From assembly GCA_040752595.1 (NCBI GenBank), contig JBFMGX010000015.1, positions 62,001 through 126,000 of the forward strand: a DNA stretch of 64,000 nt, given 5' to 3'. Made by a program: the position numbers and the translations under genes. Below the pieces are notes generated by a model. The model ran no database searches, was not told where the DNA came from, and worked only from the letters and a program-made list of their open reading frames with translations. The DNA is from Candidatus Zixiibacteriota bacterium (GTDB lineage: Bacteria > Zixibacteria > MSB-5A5 > WJJR01). This document shows, piece after piece, positions 22,243 through 63,069 of the stretch (positions are counted from its first letter, which is position 1; every line of letters starts with the position of its first letter).

Positions 22243-22434
22243 ACCCGCAAGGGGCTGAAGCCCCTTGTCCTCATGGTTGGAGTTCAGCGCACAGCCACGA
22301 GAGGACTCCCAATGTCATCCCGAGTGGAGCACGGCCCGAAGGGCCGGGTGAAGCGAGGGATCTGCTTTTCCACTTGGAGACCTTTCAAGAGAAACAGCAG
22401 ATCCCTCGTCCGCCGCGGCGGACTCGGGATGACA
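22243..22434. repeat. family 2 hairpin plus full REP-like family 1 element
   Basis: GCAAGGGGCTGAAGCCCCTTG (about 22247-22268) is followed by an inverted-arm element from TGTCATCCCGAG at 22313 to CTCGGGATGACA ending at 22434, with AACAGCAGATCCCTCGTC in its right arm. It sits inside the suf operon between sufC and sufB. Confidence 0.75.
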
Positions 22435-29554: not shown

Positions 29555-29582
29555 CCGCAAGGGGCTGAAGCCCCTTGTCCTC
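29555..29582. repeat. family 2 hairpin
   Basis: CGCAAGGGGCTGAAGCCCCTTG at about 29555-29577 is identical in its stem to the copies at 22246 and 39357. It lies in the 42-base gap between two minus-strand genes. Confidence 0.65.
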
Positions 29583-31221
29583 AATCCAAATCATGCTCCC
29601 GCTGAGGAGAGTCGAAGAGCTCGCCATTCTCCTCAGTGATGCGACGCAGGCGTCGGCCGCCGCTCTTGAGCGAGTATCCCTTCGGGAAGTCGAATTCCTT
29701 GTCCTCTTCCAGCAGTTCCTTGATCGTACGAATCTGCAGCTTGGGAATCTTGCGTCCGCTGGGAGAAACGAAGAAGCCGGTCTCCTCGGCCGCCGAATAC
29801 ATGCCCCGGGTCGGCGTCTCCAAGCTGATGAAGTATCCCATGGCCGCCCGGTCGCGTTCGATGACGTGCGCGAAGTCACGGATCATGGTCGGTGTCAGAT
29901 GTCCGCCCTTGACTTGAACCACGGCGCATTGGAGTTCCCCGCTGAGGTCCTGGAAGTAAACTCTGCCGTCCACGCCCTTGTCGCTGACCTTCTCCGGTTG
30001 CGGGATTCCGGACACCAGCCCCACCGCCCAGACTTCGAATTGCTTGGGACTCTCCTCGAAGAGCTTGCGCGCGGAGTAGGCATCCCTGGGATCGCCGATG
30101 ATCTTGTAGTGTTTGGCCCGCTTCAGACCAAAGTCACTCGTGAGGCGGGAGACGATCAGATCGATGGCGACAAACGTGATGTCGATGCCGATCCAGCGAC
30201 GGCCGTGCTTCTCCGCCGCCACGACCGCTGTGCCGCAGCCGCAGAAGGGATCGAGCACGAGGTCGCCTTCGTTGGTGGAGGCGCTGATGATTCGCTCCAG
30301 CAGGGCCAGCGGCTTCTGCGTGGGATATCCCATGCGCTCTTTGGCCTGGGCGCCGATCGGCGGAATGTCGGTCCAGACATCGCCGACAGGAACGCCTTCC
30401 TGTTCGTCGAGATATCGCTTGAGGCGGGGAACCGCACCAGGATGGGTTTGCTCAATCAACCCCTTCCTGTGAGCTTCCAACATCCGTTTCTTCGTCCACC
30501 TCCACACGCGCGTAACACCGAGGAACTCGTAGGTCAGGTTCGGCCGCTCACGATTCGGATTGACCAGGTTGTCCAGTGCGTACCGCCGTCCTGTCTTCGG
30601 CTCGACATACTTGTAGAACTGCCTCACGTAATCAGGATCGTGTTCGGCGTATTGCGGATTCCAGGTTGTTTCTTCCGAACGGACATATCGCAGGATCACG
30701 TCATGGTTGGAAGCAAACCGCGTAAAGGCAAGACCCTTGGCTGACGTGCGTTTCCAGATGAGTTCATTGCGAAACCGGGCCGGGCCGAAGACGATGTCCA
30801 GGAGAATCTTGAGGTAATGACTGGCGACCGGATCGCAGTGCAAATAGAGAGTCCCCGTCGGCTTCAGGACACGGTGCATCTCCAGGAGCCGCGGCGCCAT
30901 CATGACCAGATAGGCCATCATGTCGCTGGTCCCGAGGATCCGGTGCAACGATTCCATCAGATTGAACAGGGGTGCGTGGCGGGGATCGTCGAAGAACTCC
31001 TGGTATGCCCGCTTGCTCCAACGCCAGGTATCCTGAAAGGCCATCACCTGCGCCTGGTTCTCATCGCGCCGGGCCTGTTTGAACAGGACATTGTAATCGC
31101 GGGCGGAATTGAACGGCGGGTCCAAGTAGACCAAGTCCACGGATTCATCGGGGATATGCTCCCGCATGATCGGGAGATTGTCCCCGTAGTGCAGGATGTT
31201 CTGTGGCTTCTTGGCAATCAT
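29581..31221 (-). CDS. DNA methyltransferase (beta class, DPPF) fused to a restriction-endonuclease-like domain
   Basis: This 546-aa protein opens MIAKKPQNILHYGDNLPIMR. The catalytic motif IV YLDPPFNSARDYN lies at about residue 33 and the SAM-binding motif I LDPFCGCGTAVVAAEKHG near residue 330, the beta-class order of N6-adenine/N4-cytosine methyltransferases. TQKPLALLERIISAST precedes motif I as usual. The last 170 residues carry SDKGVDGRVYFQDLSG and CAVVQVKGGHLTPTMIRDF, resembling the D...QVK core of Mrr-like PD-(D/E)xK nucleases, and end in LKSGGRRLRRITEENGEL. It may be a single-chain restriction-modification protein or a solitary methyltransferase with a nuclease-like targeting domain. 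No separate endonuclease or specificity gene lies next to it. Confidence 0.85.
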   Translation of the reverse strand: MIAKKPQNILHYGDNLPIMREHIPDESVDLVYLDPPFNSARDYNVLFKQARRDENQAQVMAFQDTWRWSKRAYQEFFDDPRHAPLFNLMESLHRILGTSDMMAYLVMMAPRLLEMHRVLKPTGTLYLHCDPVASHYLKILLDIVFGPARFRNELIWKRTSAKGLAFTRFASNHDVILRYVRSEETTWNPQYAEHDPDYVRQFYKYVEPKTGRRYALDNLVNPNRERPNLTYEFLGVTRVWRWTKKRMLEAHRKGLIEQTHPGAVPRLKRYLDEQEGVPVGDVWTDIPPIGAQAKERMGYPTQKPLALLERIISASTNEGDLVLDPFCGCGTAVVAAEKHGRRWIGIDITFVAIDLIVSRLTSDFGLKRAKHYKIIGDPRDAYSARKLFEESPKQFEVWAVGLVSGIPQPEKVSDKGVDGRVYFQDLSGELQCAVVQVKGGHLTPTMIRDFAHVIERDRAAMGYFISLETPTRGMYSAAEETGFFVSPSGRKIPKLQIRTIKELLEEDKEFDFPKGYSLKSGGRRLRRITEENGELFDSPQREHDLD

Positions 31222-37159: not shown

Positions 37160-37515
37160 TCACCTCAAGGGGCTGAAGCCCCTCGTCCTCAGATTGCCGC
37201 CTCGAACCTGAGAATTTCCAACACCGTGGACGGACAAAAGAGCACCCTCACCCGATCCGCCTGCGGCGGATCGACCTCTCCCGGAGGGAGAGGTTGTCAA
37301 TCCCCCTCTCCCTCCGGGAGAGGGTCGGGGTGAGGGATTCGGACATATCGGATATCGTATCACGCTTCCTTGTGTATCAACGGGATAGATCACAATTCTC
37401 TCTTTGTTAGAAGCCCTGAGCGACTTGTCCCGACCCGAACGGTGTGATGGAAGCGAAGGGTCTGCTTTTCGACGGAGAACGTGTAACAGCAGATGCTTCG
37501 CTCCGCTGCATGACA
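37160..37515. repeat. cluster of dispersed repeats (families 2, 3 and 1)
   Basis: From left to right: AAGGGGCTGAAGCCCCT (37165), a family 3 unit at 37239-37345 containing CCCGATCCGCCTGCGGCGGA and two CTCTCCC/GGGAGAG hairpins, and a family 1 element at about 37430-37513 (AACAGCAGATGCTTCGCTCC right arm). A 49-base block at 37247-37295 is identical to 53059-53107, which lies inside the glycosyltransferase gene. There is no gene here. Confidence 0.7.
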
Positions 37516-40622: not shown

Positions 40623-40739
40623 TGTCATCCTGAGCGAGTTCCGTCCGTCGGAGCGGACGGAATGAAGCGAAGGATCTGCTGTTCTTCCTCTGAGGACAAC
40701 AGCAGATTCCTCATCCGCCGGGGCGGATTCGGAATGACA
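40623..40739. repeat. full REP-like family 1 element
   Basis: TGTCATCCTGAGCGAG at the left and TTCGGAATGACA at the right are inverted arms; CAACAGCAGATTCCTCATCC lies in the right half. It also contains the inner palindrome TCCGTCCGTCGGAGCGGACG. It lies between nuoH and nuoJ, where nuoI would be expected. Confidence 0.75.
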
Positions 40740-41627: not shown

Positions 41628-41662
41628 AAACAGCAGATCCCTCGCTGCGCTCGGGATGACAG
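41628..41662. repeat. half copy of REP-like family 1
   Basis: Only the right arm is present: GAAACAGCAGATCCCTCGCT...CGGGATGACAGT. It lies in the nuoK-nuoL gap. Confidence 0.65.
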
Positions 41663-43667: not shown

Positions 43668-43742
43668 TTCATCCTGAGCGAAGCGAACGGGCCGATCCGA
43701 TTGGAAAGAAACAGCAGATTCCTCGCTGCGCTCGGAATGACA
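43668..43742. repeat. REP-like family 1 element
   Basis: CATCCTGAGCGAAGCGAACG at the left and AACAGCAGATTCCTCGCTGC...GGAATGACA at the right. It fills the nuoL-nuoM gap. Confidence 0.7.
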
Positions 43743-43795: not shown

Positions 43796-45268
43796 ATGAT
43801 ATCCGGCATTCTCTCGTGGATGATCTTCCTGCCGCTTGTCGGCATGGTGGTGATCATGCTTGTGCCCAAGGACAACCACCGCGCCATTCGCGGCGTGGCG
43901 TCGGTGGCGACGTTCTTGCCCCTGATCCTGTCGTTTGTCCTGCTGGCGGGGTATGACAGCTCGACGGCGGCGTTTCAGTTCGTGGAGAAGGCGGCGTGGA
44001 TTCCGGCGCTCAACGTCAACTACCACCTCGGCGCGGATGGGATCTCGGTGCCGATGCTGTTTTTGACCGCGCTGTTGTCCTTCCTGGCGGCAATCGTCTC
44101 ATTCAACATCACGACGAGGGTCAAGGAGTACTTTGCCTTCTATCTGCTTCTGACCACCGGCATGATGGGCGTCTTCGCCGCCTTGGATTTCTTTCTCTTT
44201 TATGTGTTCTGGGAGGTCATGCTGGTGCCGATGTACTTCTTGATCGGCATCTGGGGCGGACCGCGCAAGGAGTACGCGGCGATCAAGTTCTTCCTCTACA
44301 CGCTCTTCGGCTCGATCTTCATGTTGGTGGCGATTCTGGCCTTGTATTTCACCTCGACGCCGCACACGCTGTCGATCATCGAGCACATCCAACGCGCGCC
44401 GCAGATGACGCACGGCTTCCAGATCTTCGCCTTTGTCTTCTTCTTCATCGCGTTTGCAATCAAGATCCCAACCCTGCCGTTCCACACCTGGTTGCCGGAT
44501 GCCCATGTGGAAGCGCCGACCGCGGTGTCGGTGCTGCTGGCGGGAATTCTGCTGAAGATGGGGACCTACGGTTTGTTGCGCGTGTCGTTCCCGATGTTTC
44601 CCGAGGCCACCAAGTACTTTGCGCAGCCGATGGCGATCTTGGGGATGGCCGGGATCATCTATGGCGCCTTCGTCTGCATGGCGCAGACCGATCTGAAGAA
44701 GCTGGTGGCGTACTCGTCGGTCTCGCACATGGGGTACTGTCTGTTGGGGATGGCGGCGGTCGGCTCGGTGGCCGGGATATCGGGATGCATGTTCCAGATG
44801 GTGTCGCATGGGCTGATCACGGGGGCGCTGTTTATTCTGGTCGGCGTGATTTATGATCGCGCCCACACGCGCGACATCGACGCCTACGGCGGCATGTGGC
44901 TGAAGGTGCCGGTGTACTCCGGGATCATGGTGTTGTTCGTGCTGGGGTCGCTCGGATTGCCGGGATTGTCGGGGTTTGTCAGCGAGTTCATGGTGTTTCT
45001 GGGCGCCTTCCCCTATTTCAAGGTGATCGTGGCGCTGTCGGTGATCGGCGTGCTGTTGACCGCGGCGTACTTCCTGCGCATGATCCAGCGGATGTTCCTG
45101 GGGACCGTCGCCGGGCACACGGAGCATCTGACCGAGATCAACGCGCGGGAGATCTTCACGGTCGCGCCGCTGGCGATTCTGATGATCGCCATCGGCGTCT
45201 ATCCGACGTTGCTGTCGGATTACATCAAGGAAACGATCGTCAACCTGGTGCACGTGATCGGGGCGTAG
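43796..45268 (+). CDS. nuoM: NADH-quinone oxidoreductase subunit M
   Basis: This 490-aa antiporter-like pumping subunit starts MISGILSWMIFLPLVGMVVI. It carries LFYVFWEVMLVPMYFLIGIW with the conserved glutamate, KIPTLPFHTWLPDAHVEAPT followed by AVSVLLAGILLKMGTYGLLR with the pump lysine and channel residues, DLKKLVAYSSVSHMGYCLLG, and the late helix block LSGFVSEFMVFLGAF. Complete and of normal length. It would normally be followed directly by nuoN, but about 680 bases containing a GIY-YIG gene and repeats intervene. Confidence 0.97.
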   Translation: MISGILSWMIFLPLVGMVVIMLVPKDNHRAIRGVASVATFLPLILSFVLLAGYDSSTAAFQFVEKAAWIPALNVNYHLGADGISVPMLFLTALLSFLAAIVSFNITTRVKEYFAFYLLLTTGMMGVFAALDFFLFYVFWEVMLVPMYFLIGIWGGPRKEYAAIKFFLYTLFGSIFMLVAILALYFTSTPHTLSIIEHIQRAPQMTHGFQIFAFVFFFIAFAIKIPTLPFHTWLPDAHVEAPTAVSVLLAGILLKMGTYGLLRVSFPMFPEATKYFAQPMAILGMAGIIYGAFVCMAQTDLKKLVAYSSVSHMGYCLLGMAAVGSVAGISGCMFQMVSHGLITGALFILVGVIYDRAHTRDIDAYGGMWLKVPVYSGIMVLFVLGSLGLPGLSGFVSEFMVFLGAFPYFKVIVALSVIGVLLTAAYFLRMIQRMFLGTVAGHTEHLTEINAREIFTVAPLAILMIAIGVYPTLLSDYIKETIVNLVHVIGA

Positions 45269-45320
45269 GCACTTGACAGGGATGTGACCTGAGACCCTGG
45301 AAATGAAGAACACACCACCC

Positions 45321-45419
45321 CACTGTCATTCTGAGGCGGCTCGCACGAAGTGCGGGATGCCGGAGAATCTGCTGTTCGACACGGTGAGAAAAAGCAGATT
45401 CTTCGCTTCGCTCAGAATG
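45321..45419. repeat. REP-like family 1 element, copy A flanking the GIY-YIG gene
   Basis: It runs from CACTGTCATTCTGAGGCGGC to TTCGCTTCGCTCAGAATG. The outer arms TGTCATTCTGAG/CTCAGAATG and inner arms GAATCTGCT/AGCAGATTC can pair. It matches copy B at 45826-45924 in the same orientation with a single mismatch (G against A in CCGGAG/CCGAAG). Confidence 0.85.
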
Positions 45420-45442
45420 CTAGGGGTGGGGCATCGGCGGAC

Positions 45443-45769
45443 ATGAAGGAGTATTTCGTCTACATCATGGCAAGCCGATCACGGACGTTGTACACCGGAG
45501 TCACGAGCGACCTGACGCGACGGGTGTGGGAGCACCGGCACGCGGCAAGGGGTGGCTTCACAGCGAAGTACAAAGCCCACCGTCTCGTGTACTACCAGTC
45601 GACACCGAACATCTCTGCCGCGATTGCCCGAGAAAGACAGATCAAGGGCTGGCTGAGAGCACGAAAGATCGCACTGATTGAGTCCATCAATCCGACGTGG
45701 GAAGATCTTGCGCCCGACGACGTGGCCGTTGGAAAAAGAACAGCAGATTCTTCGCTTCGCTCAGAATGA
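45443..45769 (+). CDS. GIY-YIG superfamily endonuclease
   Basis: The ATG at 45443 gives 108 aa. The single GIY-YIG domain is intact: KEYFVYIMASRSRTLYTGVT holds the paired tyrosine/glycine motifs, DLTRRVWEHRH supplies the arginine helix, and AAIARERQIKGWLRARKIAL holds the conserved glutamate followed by a basic helix. This matches the small YhbQ/UPF0213-like nucleases. The last dozen residues (GKRTADSSLRSE) are encoded by a half copy of the REP-like repeat. The gene interrupts the nuoM-nuoN pair and lies between two almost identical repeat copies, suggesting insertion as a unit. Confidence 0.88.
   Translation: MKEYFVYIMASRSRTLYTGVTSDLTRRVWEHRHAARGGFTAKYKAHRLVYYQSTPNISAAIARERQIKGWLRARKIALIESINPTWEDLAPDDVAVGKRTADSSLRSE
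45733..45769. repeat. half copy of REP-like family 1 inside the GIY-YIG 3' end
   Basis: AAAAAGAACAGCAGATTCTT and CGCTTCGCTCAGAATGAC match the right arm of copies A and B. The stop codon of the nuclease gene is supplied by this sequence (TCAGAATGA). Confidence 0.75.
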
Positions 45770-45825
45770 CGCTGCGGGAAGTGATGAGAGGCGACATGCG
45801 AAATCTCTTTCACCGTAAACCGATC

Positions 45826-45928
45826 CACTGTCATTCTGAGGCGGCTCGCACGAAGTGCGGGATGCCGAAGAATCTGCTGTTCGACACGGTGAGAAAAAGC
45901 AGATTCTTCGCTTCGCTCAGAATGACAG
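45826..45928. repeat. REP-like family 1 element, copy B flanking the GIY-YIG gene
   Basis: A direct repeat of copy A at a distance of 505 bases, with complete outer arms CTGTCATTCTGAG and CTCAGAATGACAG. It ends about 20 bases before the nuoN start. Confidence 0.85.
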
Positions 45929-45947
45929 GATGGGGCGTCTGACATCC

Positions 45948-47423
45948 ATGCCCTTCAACCTCTCCCAATTCTACGCCGACTGGGGCACGATCCTCCCCGA
46001 GTGCTTCCTGTTTCTCTGGGCGCTGGTGATTCTCGCCTGGGCGACCGGGACCCGCGATGAGAAGCCGGGGGGTTCCGGCCTCTTTGCGGCGCTGACGATC
46101 ATCGGAGCCGTGATCACTGCCGTTTGGGTCGCCATGACCGCGGATGGCACCGCCTTCGGCGGGACATTCGTCTTCGACCGTCTGGCGGTGGTCTTCAAAG
46201 AGATCGTGCTCGGCACCGTGATCCTGACCGCCATGTCGTCTGTCGGCACAGTGGGACGGCTGCGGGCGCATCGCGGCGAATACTACGGCATGATCCTGTT
46301 TTCGGCGGTCGGGATGATGCTGATGGCCTCGGCGACCGAGCTTCTGCTGCTCTATGTATCGATCGAGCTGTCGACCATCGCCCTATTCGCGCTGGCGGCC
46401 TACCACAAGACCAATCGCAAGTCGGCCGAAGCGGGTCTGAAGTACGTGATCCTCGGCGGGATTTCCTCGGCGATCCTGCTGTATGGCGTCGCCTTACTCT
46501 ATGGTCTGACCGGCACCACCGAGCTGGCGGCGATCCGCACGGCGGTCCTGCAAATGTACACAAGCACAGGTGTTTTTCCACCCGCGATGACGCTGGCGCT
46601 CATTCTGGTTGTTGCCGGATTCGGATTCAAACTGGCGCTGGCGCCGTTTCACATGTGGGCGCCCGATGTGTACGAGGGCGCGCCGACGCCGATCACCGCT
46701 TATCTGTCGGTTGCCTCCAAGGCGGCGGCGGTGGCGGCCTTCATCCGGGTCTTCTTCATCGGGTTGGAATCGGCGCAGTCGGTGTGGATTCAGGTGATCG
46801 CGGCCCTGGCGGCGCTGGCGATGATCGTCGGCAACGTCACCGCGATCGTGCAGACCAACATCAAGCGCATGCTGGCCTATTCCTCGGTGGCGCAGATCGG
46901 GTATGTGCTGGTCGGCGCGGTGGCGCTCGACACCTGGGGCGCCACGGCGATGTCGTTTTACATGATGGCGTACCTGTTCGCCAACATGGGCGCCTTCATC
47001 TGCGTGATCGCCTTTTCCGAACGCACCGGCTCGGATGAGATCGCGCACTATGATGGCCTGGCGCAGCGCTCGCCTGTGCTGGCGGCGTTCTTTACACTGT
47101 TCCTGTTGTCGTTGACCGGCATTCCGCCGACGGCGGGATTTTTGGCCAAGTACTATGTCTTCCTGGCGGCGATCAACGCCGACTACATGTGGCTGGTCAT
47201 CATCGGCGTGGTGACATCGGTGATCGCGCTCTACTACTATGCCACCGTGATCCGCCGCATGTACTTCCCCGCCGAGGCGCCATCGGGTGGCGTGGCTTTG
47301 TCCCTTAGCTTGACGGTGGCATTGATTCTCTCGGCCGCCGGTGTCCTGTTCTTCGGCATTTTCCCCGGATCGTTCGTGGCGTTTATTCAGAACGCCGCGC
47401 AGATGCTGCTGGCGGGGATGTGA
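45948..47423 (+). CDS. nuoN: NADH-quinone oxidoreductase subunit N
   Basis: This 491-aa antiporter-like pumping subunit starts MPFNLSQFYADWGTILPECF at 45948, just after repeat copy B. Key blocks are LLYVSIELSTIALFALAAYH with the conserved glutamate, FGFKLALAPFHMWAPDVYEG followed by APTPITAYLSVASKAA with pump lysines, and IKRMLAYSSVAQIGYVLVGA. Normal length and complete. It is the last complex I gene in the window; the genes for subunits B, C, D, E, F, G and I are not nearby. Confidence 0.97.
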   Translation: MPFNLSQFYADWGTILPECFLFLWALVILAWATGTRDEKPGGSGLFAALTIIGAVITAVWVAMTADGTAFGGTFVFDRLAVVFKEIVLGTVILTAMSSVGTVGRLRAHRGEYYGMILFSAVGMMLMASATELLLLYVSIELSTIALFALAAYHKTNRKSAEAGLKYVILGGISSAILLYGVALLYGLTGTTELAAIRTAVLQMYTSTGVFPPAMTLALILVVAGFGFKLALAPFHMWAPDVYEGAPTPITAYLSVASKAAAVAAFIRVFFIGLESAQSVWIQVIAALAALAMIVGNVTAIVQTNIKRMLAYSSVAQIGYVLVGAVALDTWGATAMSFYMMAYLFANMGAFICVIAFSERTGSDEIAHYDGLAQRSPVLAAFFTLFLLSLTGIPPTAGFLAKYYVFLAAINADYMWLVIIGVVTSVIALYYYATVIRRMYFPAEAPSGGVALSLSLTVALILSAAGVLFFGIFPGSFVAFIQNAAQMLLAGM

Positions 47424-61653: not shown

Positions 61654-63069
61654 ATGGGAATAGAGAATGCAGCGATCTGGAAGGAGTGCTTGGGGCACAT
61701 TGAAAACCAGATCGGCACCGAGAACTTCTACACCTGGCTGGCGTGTTCTGAACTCATTGAAATTGAAGGCGACACTGCCGCCATAGCGCTGCCGAATCGA
61801 TTCGTCGCCGATTGGGTCCGCAAACGCTACAGCGGTCTGATCGATGAAACGCTGGCCAAGGTCACCGGGGCCACACGACGTCACCGGCTGGAGATCCGTC
61901 CCAACGGGAACGGCGACGGGTCGGCGGAGTCTCCCGGTCACCCGGTGTCGACCGACGGGGACGATTCGGAGTTGCGCACACAGTACTTGGATCGCGCCGC
62001 GGCGGAACGGGCAATTGTCGAGGCGAGAACCACAGCCCAGCTCAATCCGCGATTCAACTTTGAGAGTTTCGTTGTCGGGCAATCCAATCAGTTGGCCCAT
62101 GCGGCCGCCTTGGCCGTCTCCGAGATGCCGGGTCGGACGCGTTACAACCCGCTCTGCATCTACGGCTCCGTGGGTCTTGGTAAGACACACCTCGCGCAGG
62201 CGATCGGCAACGCCGTGCTGGAGAATTGCCCCGGAGCCAGCGTCCTCTATGTAACCTCGGAGAAGTTCACCAACGACTTCATTGATTCGCTGTCGCGGCG
62301 GACGACATCGGCGTTTGTCACGCGCTACCGTTCGGTCGACGTACTCCTGATCGACGACATTCAGTTCTTCGCCGGAAAGGAGTCCACCCAAGAGCAGTTC
62401 TTCCACACGTTCAACACGCTGCACCAGAACGCGCGCCAGATCGTCCTGACGGCGGACCGGGCGCCGCGCGACATCAAGGGGCTGGAGGAACGCCTCTTAT
62501 CGCGCTTTCAATGGGGGTTGGCGGCGGACATCCGCCCGCCCGATTTTGAAACGCGCATGGCGATCCTGCAGAAGAAGTTGGAGGGGGAAGACATCATCCT
62601 GCCGCCGGATGTCCTGACCCATGTGGCCCGCTTTGCCCAAGCCAACATTCGTGAGCTGGAGGGGGCTTTGGTACACCTCCTGGCGGTCAGTTCCCTGAGC
62701 GGGACGCCGGTTACCCTGGAGACGGCGCAGACAGTGCTGCGCGACACGCTCTCACCGGCACGCAAGCCGATCACAATCAAGGCAATCAACGGCGTCGTGG
62801 CCGCCTCCTTCGGCGTCGAGGAGCCAGTGCTCTCCTCCAAGCGGCGGACTCAAGACGTCGCCATGGCGCGCCAGGTGGCCATGTATCTGGCGCGAACCCT
62901 AACCAGCATGTCCCTGAAAGCGATCGGAGCCGAGTACGGTGGCCGCGACCATTCGACGGTCATCCATGGTGTGAACGTGATCCGGGACGCCCTGAAGACC
63001 GACGCGGAGTTGAAGCTCCGCGTCGACCACGCGATCACGGCCTTGCATGGCGCTGCGACCAACGCATGA
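61654..63069 (+). CDS. dnaA: chromosomal replication initiator DnaA
   Basis: This 471-aa protein opens the origin and loads the helicase. The ATG at 61654 follows GGGAG with good spacing. Domain I (IWKECLGHIENQIGTENFYT) and a linker precede the AAA+ domain: NPRFNFESFVVGQSNQLAHA, Walker A IYGSVGLGKTHLAQAIG (about residues 171-178), Walker B DVLLIDDIQFFAGKESTQEQ, and the arginine-finger region GLEERLLSRFQWGL. Domain IV has the DNA-binding signature SLKAIGAEYGGRDHSTVIHG. Complete and of normal length. dnaN follows on the same strand. Confidence 0.98.
   Translation: MGIENAAIWKECLGHIENQIGTENFYTWLACSELIEIEGDTAAIALPNRFVADWVRKRYSGLIDETLAKVTGATRRHRLEIRPNGNGDGSAESPGHPVSTDGDDSELRTQYLDRAAAERAIVEARTTAQLNPRFNFESFVVGQSNQLAHAAALAVSEMPGRTRYNPLCIYGSVGLGKTHLAQAIGNAVLENCPGASVLYVTSEKFTNDFIDSLSRRTTSAFVTRYRSVDVLLIDDIQFFAGKESTQEQFFHTFNTLHQNARQIVLTADRAPRDIKGLEERLLSRFQWGLAADIRPPDFETRMAILQKKLEGEDIILPPDVLTHVARFAQANIRELEGALVHLLAVSSLSGTPVTLETAQTVLRDTLSPARKPITIKAINGVVAASFGVEEPVLSSKRRTQDVAMARQVAMYLARTLTSMSLKAIGAEYGGRDHSTVIHGVNVIRDALKTDAELKLRVDHAITALHGAATNA

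Follow-up and report, generated by a model that had tools for sequence, protein, structure and literature searches.

A small GIY-YIG nuclease gene between nuoM and nuoN and its flanking hairpin repeats as a probable REP-like selfish pair

We analysed a stretch of 64,000 nucleotides (the window; positions 62,001 to 126,000 of contig JBFMGX010000015.1, assembly GCA_040752595.1) from a Candidatus Zixiibacteriota bacterium, in which a gene for a small GIY-YIG nuclease lies between the complex I genes nuoM and nuoN with a hairpin repeat on each side. From sequence comparisons, we consider it probable that a site-specific nuclease and its flanking repeat form a selfish pair of the kind known from repetitive extragenic palindromic (REP) systems, inserted at the nuoM–nuoN junction as a cassette. 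The association of nuclease and repeat is general. Matching repeats flank homologous nucleases across phyla, and their type follows the sequence of the enzyme, which suggests that enzyme and repeat may recognize each other and travel as a pair.

The nuclease gene (45443–45769, plus strand), already recognized as a GIY-YIG gene in the preliminary description of this DNA, is intact and encodes a protein of 108 amino acids in which GIY-YIG is the sole Pfam domain (PF01541, 50.1 bits, E = 3 × 10−13). The catalytic residues Y7, Y17, G19, R27, E64 and N83 are all kept, as judged from conserved columns in an alignment with 78 relatives, and the AlphaFold model has the GIY-YIG fold with a mean pLDDT of 86.6. 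By Pfam, conserved columns and AlphaFold, this small stand-alone domain has a complete active site. Residues 63–75 constitute the post-catalytic motif RERQIKGWLRARK. Among solved structures, the model matches 1zg2 (UPF0213) best, followed by Slx1. No NCBIfam family scored above cut-off for the nuclease, and Rfam gave no match in the nuo region.

One repeat unit of 105 bp lies on each side of the gene. The left unit (45320–45424; repeat family D6) contains a plus-strand hairpin at about 45326–45369 and a minus-strand hairpin at about 45397–45420; the right unit (45825–45929) contains the corresponding hairpins at 45831–45874 and 45902–45925. Each unit is an inverted dimer, in which plus-strand TCATTCTGAG, a long apical loop and CGAAGAATC are followed by the short minus-strand hairpin TCATTCTGAGCGAAGCGAAGAATC, and as single-stranded DNA (ssDNA) it is predicted to fold with −34.5 kcal/mol (z = −7.9 relative to shuffled sequence). 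The two copies had been compared by eye over 45321–45419 and 45826–45924 and said to differ at one of 99 positions; our alignment agrees and places the difference at 45363 (G/A). It had also been noticed that a third, half copy supplies the end of the nuclease, and indeed a single TCATTCTGAGCGAAGCGAAGAATC hairpin (45746–45769, minus strand) encodes its last codons, ADSSLRSE-stop. This repeat-encoded end of the cassette is conserved among homologues: nine nucleases, that of the window included, end inside a repeat in the same frame, with the tail SLRSE, SLRSG or SLRSA.

Searching the 2.9-Mb genome with a 28-nucleotide core of the repeat gave 36 matches with up to three mismatches and none in reversed-pattern controls; inside the window there are eight copies at up to six mismatches (crude shuffles, 0). 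Because copies with zero or one mismatch are confined to the nuclease locus, the flanking repeats are a subtype distinct from the remaining genome copies, which carry other stems, of the GGATC, GCATC or GAGGAAT type.

Covariation indicates that selection acts on the repeat as a hairpin. Across 124 copies, collected with only TCA, GAGC, GCGA and TC as fixed letters, all four open stem pairs were Watson–Crick in 115, compared with 24 on average and 36 at most for shuffled arms, and the loop was GNA (GAA, GCA, GTA or GGA) in 113. Repeats of the TCATTCTGAG kind, which we call class C1, consist of an outer stem of 5 bp, tandem G·A mismatches, two further base pairs and a GNA triloop. The predicted stability of a single C1 hairpin is no greater than that of shuffles under a folding program that gives the GNA mini-hairpin no credit. 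GCGNAGC is an unusually stable DNA mini-hairpin, and this stability would fit recognition of the repeat as a single DNA strand.

We assessed the association in two sets of loci. A search of 58 relatives yielded a bimodal distribution of GIY-YIG genes, comprising subfamily A, which resembles the gene in the window, and subfamily B, the canonical GIY-YIG genes. A scan of GTDB genomes added 80 named loci, of which 77 were counted, from some 18 phyla. The repeat classes (C1 to C5) were defined on the relatives by one analyst using simple patterns before they were used on the named loci, and the counts from the two sets are not fully independent because some genomes (for example, those of L040 and L165) occur in both. 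Same-class repeats were present on both sides of 37 of 47 subfamily A genes from relatives in the host's taxonomic class and 45 of 77 named loci (Fisher P = 8 × 10−20 for the named set), but of none of 22 subfamily B genes and only 1 of 99 control open reading frames (ORFs) of the same loci. When classes were ignored, a repeat common to both flanks was found at 46 of 50 genes of subfamily A and at 9 of 23 of subfamily B, where the repeats were of other kinds, and at 58 of 77 named loci compared with 6 of 99 control ORFs. The preliminary description had proposed looking for such an excess, and it is there: genes of the subfamily mostly have same-class repeats on both sides, whereas canonical GIY-YIG and other genes do not. 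Repeat copy number was also higher where the cognate nuclease was present (C1, P = 7 × 10−4; C3, P = 2 × 10−5), with no significant association with the other nuclease. Repeat-free GIY-YIG copies in the same genome had earlier been held to count against an association. Such genes exist (UvrC, a UPF0213-like gene and one beside the transfer-messenger RNA (tmRNA) gene, all without nuclease-type repeats), but since they belong to different subfamilies they do not refute it.

The class of the repeat corresponds to the residues that follow the catalytic glutamate. GWLR at this position goes with C1 (TCATTCTGAG) in 27 of 30 cases, (G/A)GSR (for example, GGSR) with C3 (TCATTGCGAG repeats) in 17 of 17, and WxRxW (WxRxWK) with C2, the perfect CGTC-type hairpins, in 27 of 33. 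On the nuclease tree, repeat class requires 16 changes, against 46–58 with shuffled labels, and host phylum 33 changes, against 41–49; with 16 changes for class and 33 for phylum, the pair would therefore cross phyla more often than its members switch partners. Seven genomes carry two nuclease classes. At 14 of their 15 loci, one or both flanks hold the repeat class that the motif predicts, the expectation being taken from the clade in the case of the odd SWSRSAK motif. The script left the fifteenth (L061) unclassified; a near-perfect CGTC-type hairpin is nonetheless common to both of its flanks. None of these loci carries the class of the other nuclease.

The gene separates two neighbours that are normally adjacent, nuoM (43796–45268, plus strand), which adjoins nuoN without an insert in relatives, and nuoN itself (45948–47423, plus strand; start set by homology). 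A GIY-YIG gene was present between them in none of the 29 relatives whose junction was examined, so that the empty site anticipated in the preliminary description was found; in the six that belong to the same genus and family, 13 to about 220 bp separate nuoM from nuoN. One family relative (G004, L111) has a lone repeat dimer at the junction. The G+C content at third codon positions is 0.65 in the nuclease gene, 0.88 in nuoM and 0.84 in nuoN, the low value fitting the expectation for imported DNA. The nearest entry to the window nuclease on the tree, in a weakly supported placement, is a Terriglobia protein with 67% identity over 90 residues, and no nuclease of the GWLR type was seen in the other genus and family members searched. 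Together, the empty sites, the low third-position G+C content, the locus-only repeat subtype, the Terriglobia neighbour and the lack of a GWLR-type enzyme in kin point to import of a cassette that would have brought its own repeats, probably from another lineage.

A parallel to the nuo insertion is seen in Azospirillum lipoferum 4B (L216, 1489–1782), where a nuclease of the family is inserted between sufB and sufC with CGTC hairpins on each side in opposite orientation. In Planktothrix agardhii (L219, 1501–1785), a C1-type nuclease lies between an MmeI-like restriction gene and the DISARM gene drmA.

A homologue in Neisseria gonorrhoeae (48% identity over 89 amino acids, E = 3 × 10−18) has the same motif layout and is flanked by dRS3 hairpins, one form of which has at least 107 copies in that record. 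The record (NZ_CP119142.1, L215; 2.17 Mb) is entered in PLSDB as a plasmid, and its size is that of a chromosome. We take this homologue to be Ssn. Chenal et al. are said to have described Ssn, in Nature Communications in 2025, as site-specific ssDNA nucleases of the GIY-YIG superfamily with a repeated target, NTS, and with many homologues of differing specificity; the meningococcal enzyme reportedly has a role in natural transformation. The window gene resembles that system in being a small stand-alone GIY-YIG gene with a cognate repeat both beside it and at other places in the genome. It differs in its repeat, which is of the TCATTCTGAG...GAATC class, contains a GNA mini-hairpin and often forms inverted dimers, in its post-catalytic motif (GWLR instead of the KWNRAWK of Neisseria) and in its insertion into a conserved operon. 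The best reading of these likenesses is that the window gene would be a member of the same kind of nuclease–repeat system with another repeat specificity, and by analogy single-strand cutting would be expected of its enzyme.

CGTC REPs have been reported without a dedicated transposase, with dRS3 as CGTC-1 and with Azospirillum lipoferum and Sinorhizobium meliloti among the carriers (Di Nocera 2013, PMC3733652). In both of these species, we found a nuclease of the family adjoining CGTC-type hairpins. GIY-YIG goes unmentioned in that paper (PMC3733652), and among the papers searched none was found to link GIY-YIG to REP or dRS3. C1 repeats resemble CGTC REPs in having an unpaired (C/T)GTC tag at one end, a stem that starts with AT and head-to-head dimers; tag, stem start and short 3′ tail are all present in TGTC-ATTCT...AGAAT-CTG. 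They differ in their internal tandem G·A mismatch and triloop, in place of a perfect stem of 8–9 bp with a loop of 4–5 nucleotides, although the C2 class of relatives does have such a stem and loop. Like REP/RAYT (REPIN) systems, the present system combines hairpin dimers in tens of copies with one or a few endonuclease genes flanked by them, but its enzyme is GIY-YIG instead of a Y1 HUH transposase. The UPF0213 or YhbQ-like GIY-YIG proteins (1zg2, 1ywl) provide the nearest solved structures to the window protein; they share about 30% identity with it, form a separate clade and are without same-class repeats of C1–C5 on both sides.

In the mechanism we favour, the natural substrate of the small nuclease would be the foot of the flanking hairpin repeat. 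The enzyme would cut the repeat, probably folded from one strand, while the DNA is single-stranded during replication, repair or uptake. Recombination or repair between copies of the repeat could move or spread the cassette and leave repeats behind. A cassette consisting of the nuclease gene with a repeat dimer on each side entered the nuoM–nuoN junction, probably from another lineage. The earlier suggestion that a GIY-YIG enzyme acts on, or spreads with, these repeats gains support from the empty site, the flanking counts and the match between class and clade. Cutting, a preference for single strands and mobility of the pair are inferred. About a tenth of nuclease copies have in-frame stops or frame damage, as expected of a selfish element subject to gain and decay.

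Several observations weigh against this mechanism. No shared left/right repeat was found by BLAST at 19 of the 77 named loci, and repeats also occur in genomes in which no cognate nuclease was detected. The motif code is loose for WRRxK, which is mixed, and for unclassified motifs, and the nuclease tree is based on 94 columns, with many forks unresolved. The flanking subtype has not multiplied elsewhere in the genome, and thus spread of the repeat by the window enzyme itself is not evident. Finally, we saw neither an excision product nor a target-site duplication nor a fresh transposition, the intergenic DNA of relatives being too diverged to fix the boundary.

The nuclease gene could instead home to pre-existing repeats, in the manner of homing endonucleases, with the repeats spreading by other means such as RAYTs or replication slippage. 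Genomes with repeats but no nuclease, the lone dimer at nuoM–nuoN in the family relative and the six Y1 transposase-like genes over cut-off in this genome (a seventh lies below) are what such a parasite would lead one to expect. However, the flanking repeats belong to a subtype that the rest of the genome lacks, which means that the gene was not simply inserted into a local copy; repeat class tracks the nuclease tree; and none of the RAYT-like genes has the nuclease-flanking repeat family within 300 bp, several having other palindromes and some none. We therefore regard homing as unlikely. Slightly less likely still is a resident host nuclease that modulates transformation or uptake by trimming ssDNA at repeats as it enters the cell, its flanking repeats being protective or regulatory. 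The reported role of meningococcal Ssn in natural transformation would suit this idea, as would the long life of the gene in some genera, with its position conserved in the pairs L040/L041 and L038/L042, whereas the patchy distribution of the subfamily across relatives, the insertions into conserved operons (nuo and suf) and the damaged copies speak against it.

Related repeats in other nuo gaps of the window might suggest that intergenic repeats are so common that any small gene appears flanked. We find this very improbable: the control ORFs, the canonical GIY-YIG genes and the class-on-tree test reject it, as does the class correspondence inside single genomes.

A broader proposal, which we make tentatively and with some doubt, is that small GIY-YIG nucleases could be the missing dedicated mobilizing enzymes of the CGTC-type REP superfamily, parallel to RAYT/GTAG, across at least about 18 phyla, with the segment after the glutamate (GWLR, GGSR, WxRxWK or WRRxK) matching the hairpin class that is recognized. 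CGTC-type REPs, described as enzyme-less, are now tied to a nuclease family by position, co-inheritance and residue-to-repeat correspondence. If true, the proposal would account for the upkeep of a class of repeats that is very common in bacteria, the TCATTCTGAGCGAAGCGAAGAATCT and TCATTGCGAG families among them. It would also provide sequence-specific ssDNA nucleases whose targets are predicted, and would show that conserved operons, nuo and suf for example, are entered by cassettes of this kind.

Other copies of the repeat in the nuo region of the window lie in the nuoL–nuoM gap (43717–43740, minus strand; TTCCGAG...GAGGAAT type), in the nuoK–nuoL gap (41636–41659, minus strand; TCCCGAG...GAGGGAT type) and after nuoH (40625–40676, plus strand; with a TCATCCTGAG head and a long apical loop). 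A phage origin of the nuclease is without support, phage relatives among the matches listed being only about 33% identical.

The absence of a visible RAYT gene from the window, remarked on in the preliminary description, is not contradicted by our search. Mobilization of the window repeat by RAYTs is disfavoured, as the Y1 genes of the genome carry other palindromes or none. One RAYT-like Y1 gene (L221, G000:C49:56883-57140) lies between copies of GCAAGGGGCTGAAGCCCCTTGT, the sequence that also constitutes repeat family D2 in the window (22245–22273, 29555–29583 and 37163–37191); several REP systems coexist in this genome.

In the host's taxonomic class, canonical (UPF0213-like) GIY-YIG genes often have tRNA-Ser genes, with several anticodons, as near neighbours: they lie close to tRNA-Ser at 11 of 22 loci scanned (L001 (G000:C12), L085, L086, L088, L089, L090, L092, L093, L096, L098 and L102) and near tmRNA at two (L004 and L087), compared with 0 of 32 subfamily A genes for either. 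At L001, the gene is bracketed by a 63-bp perfect direct repeat that ends like the 3′ end of tRNA-Ser, as after integration at a tRNA gene. The canonical genes at L001, L085 and L089 end in ...LRSG, resembling CCTTCGACTCCGCTCAGGG read in frame, and are possibly another nuclease subfamily that ends in its own repeat.
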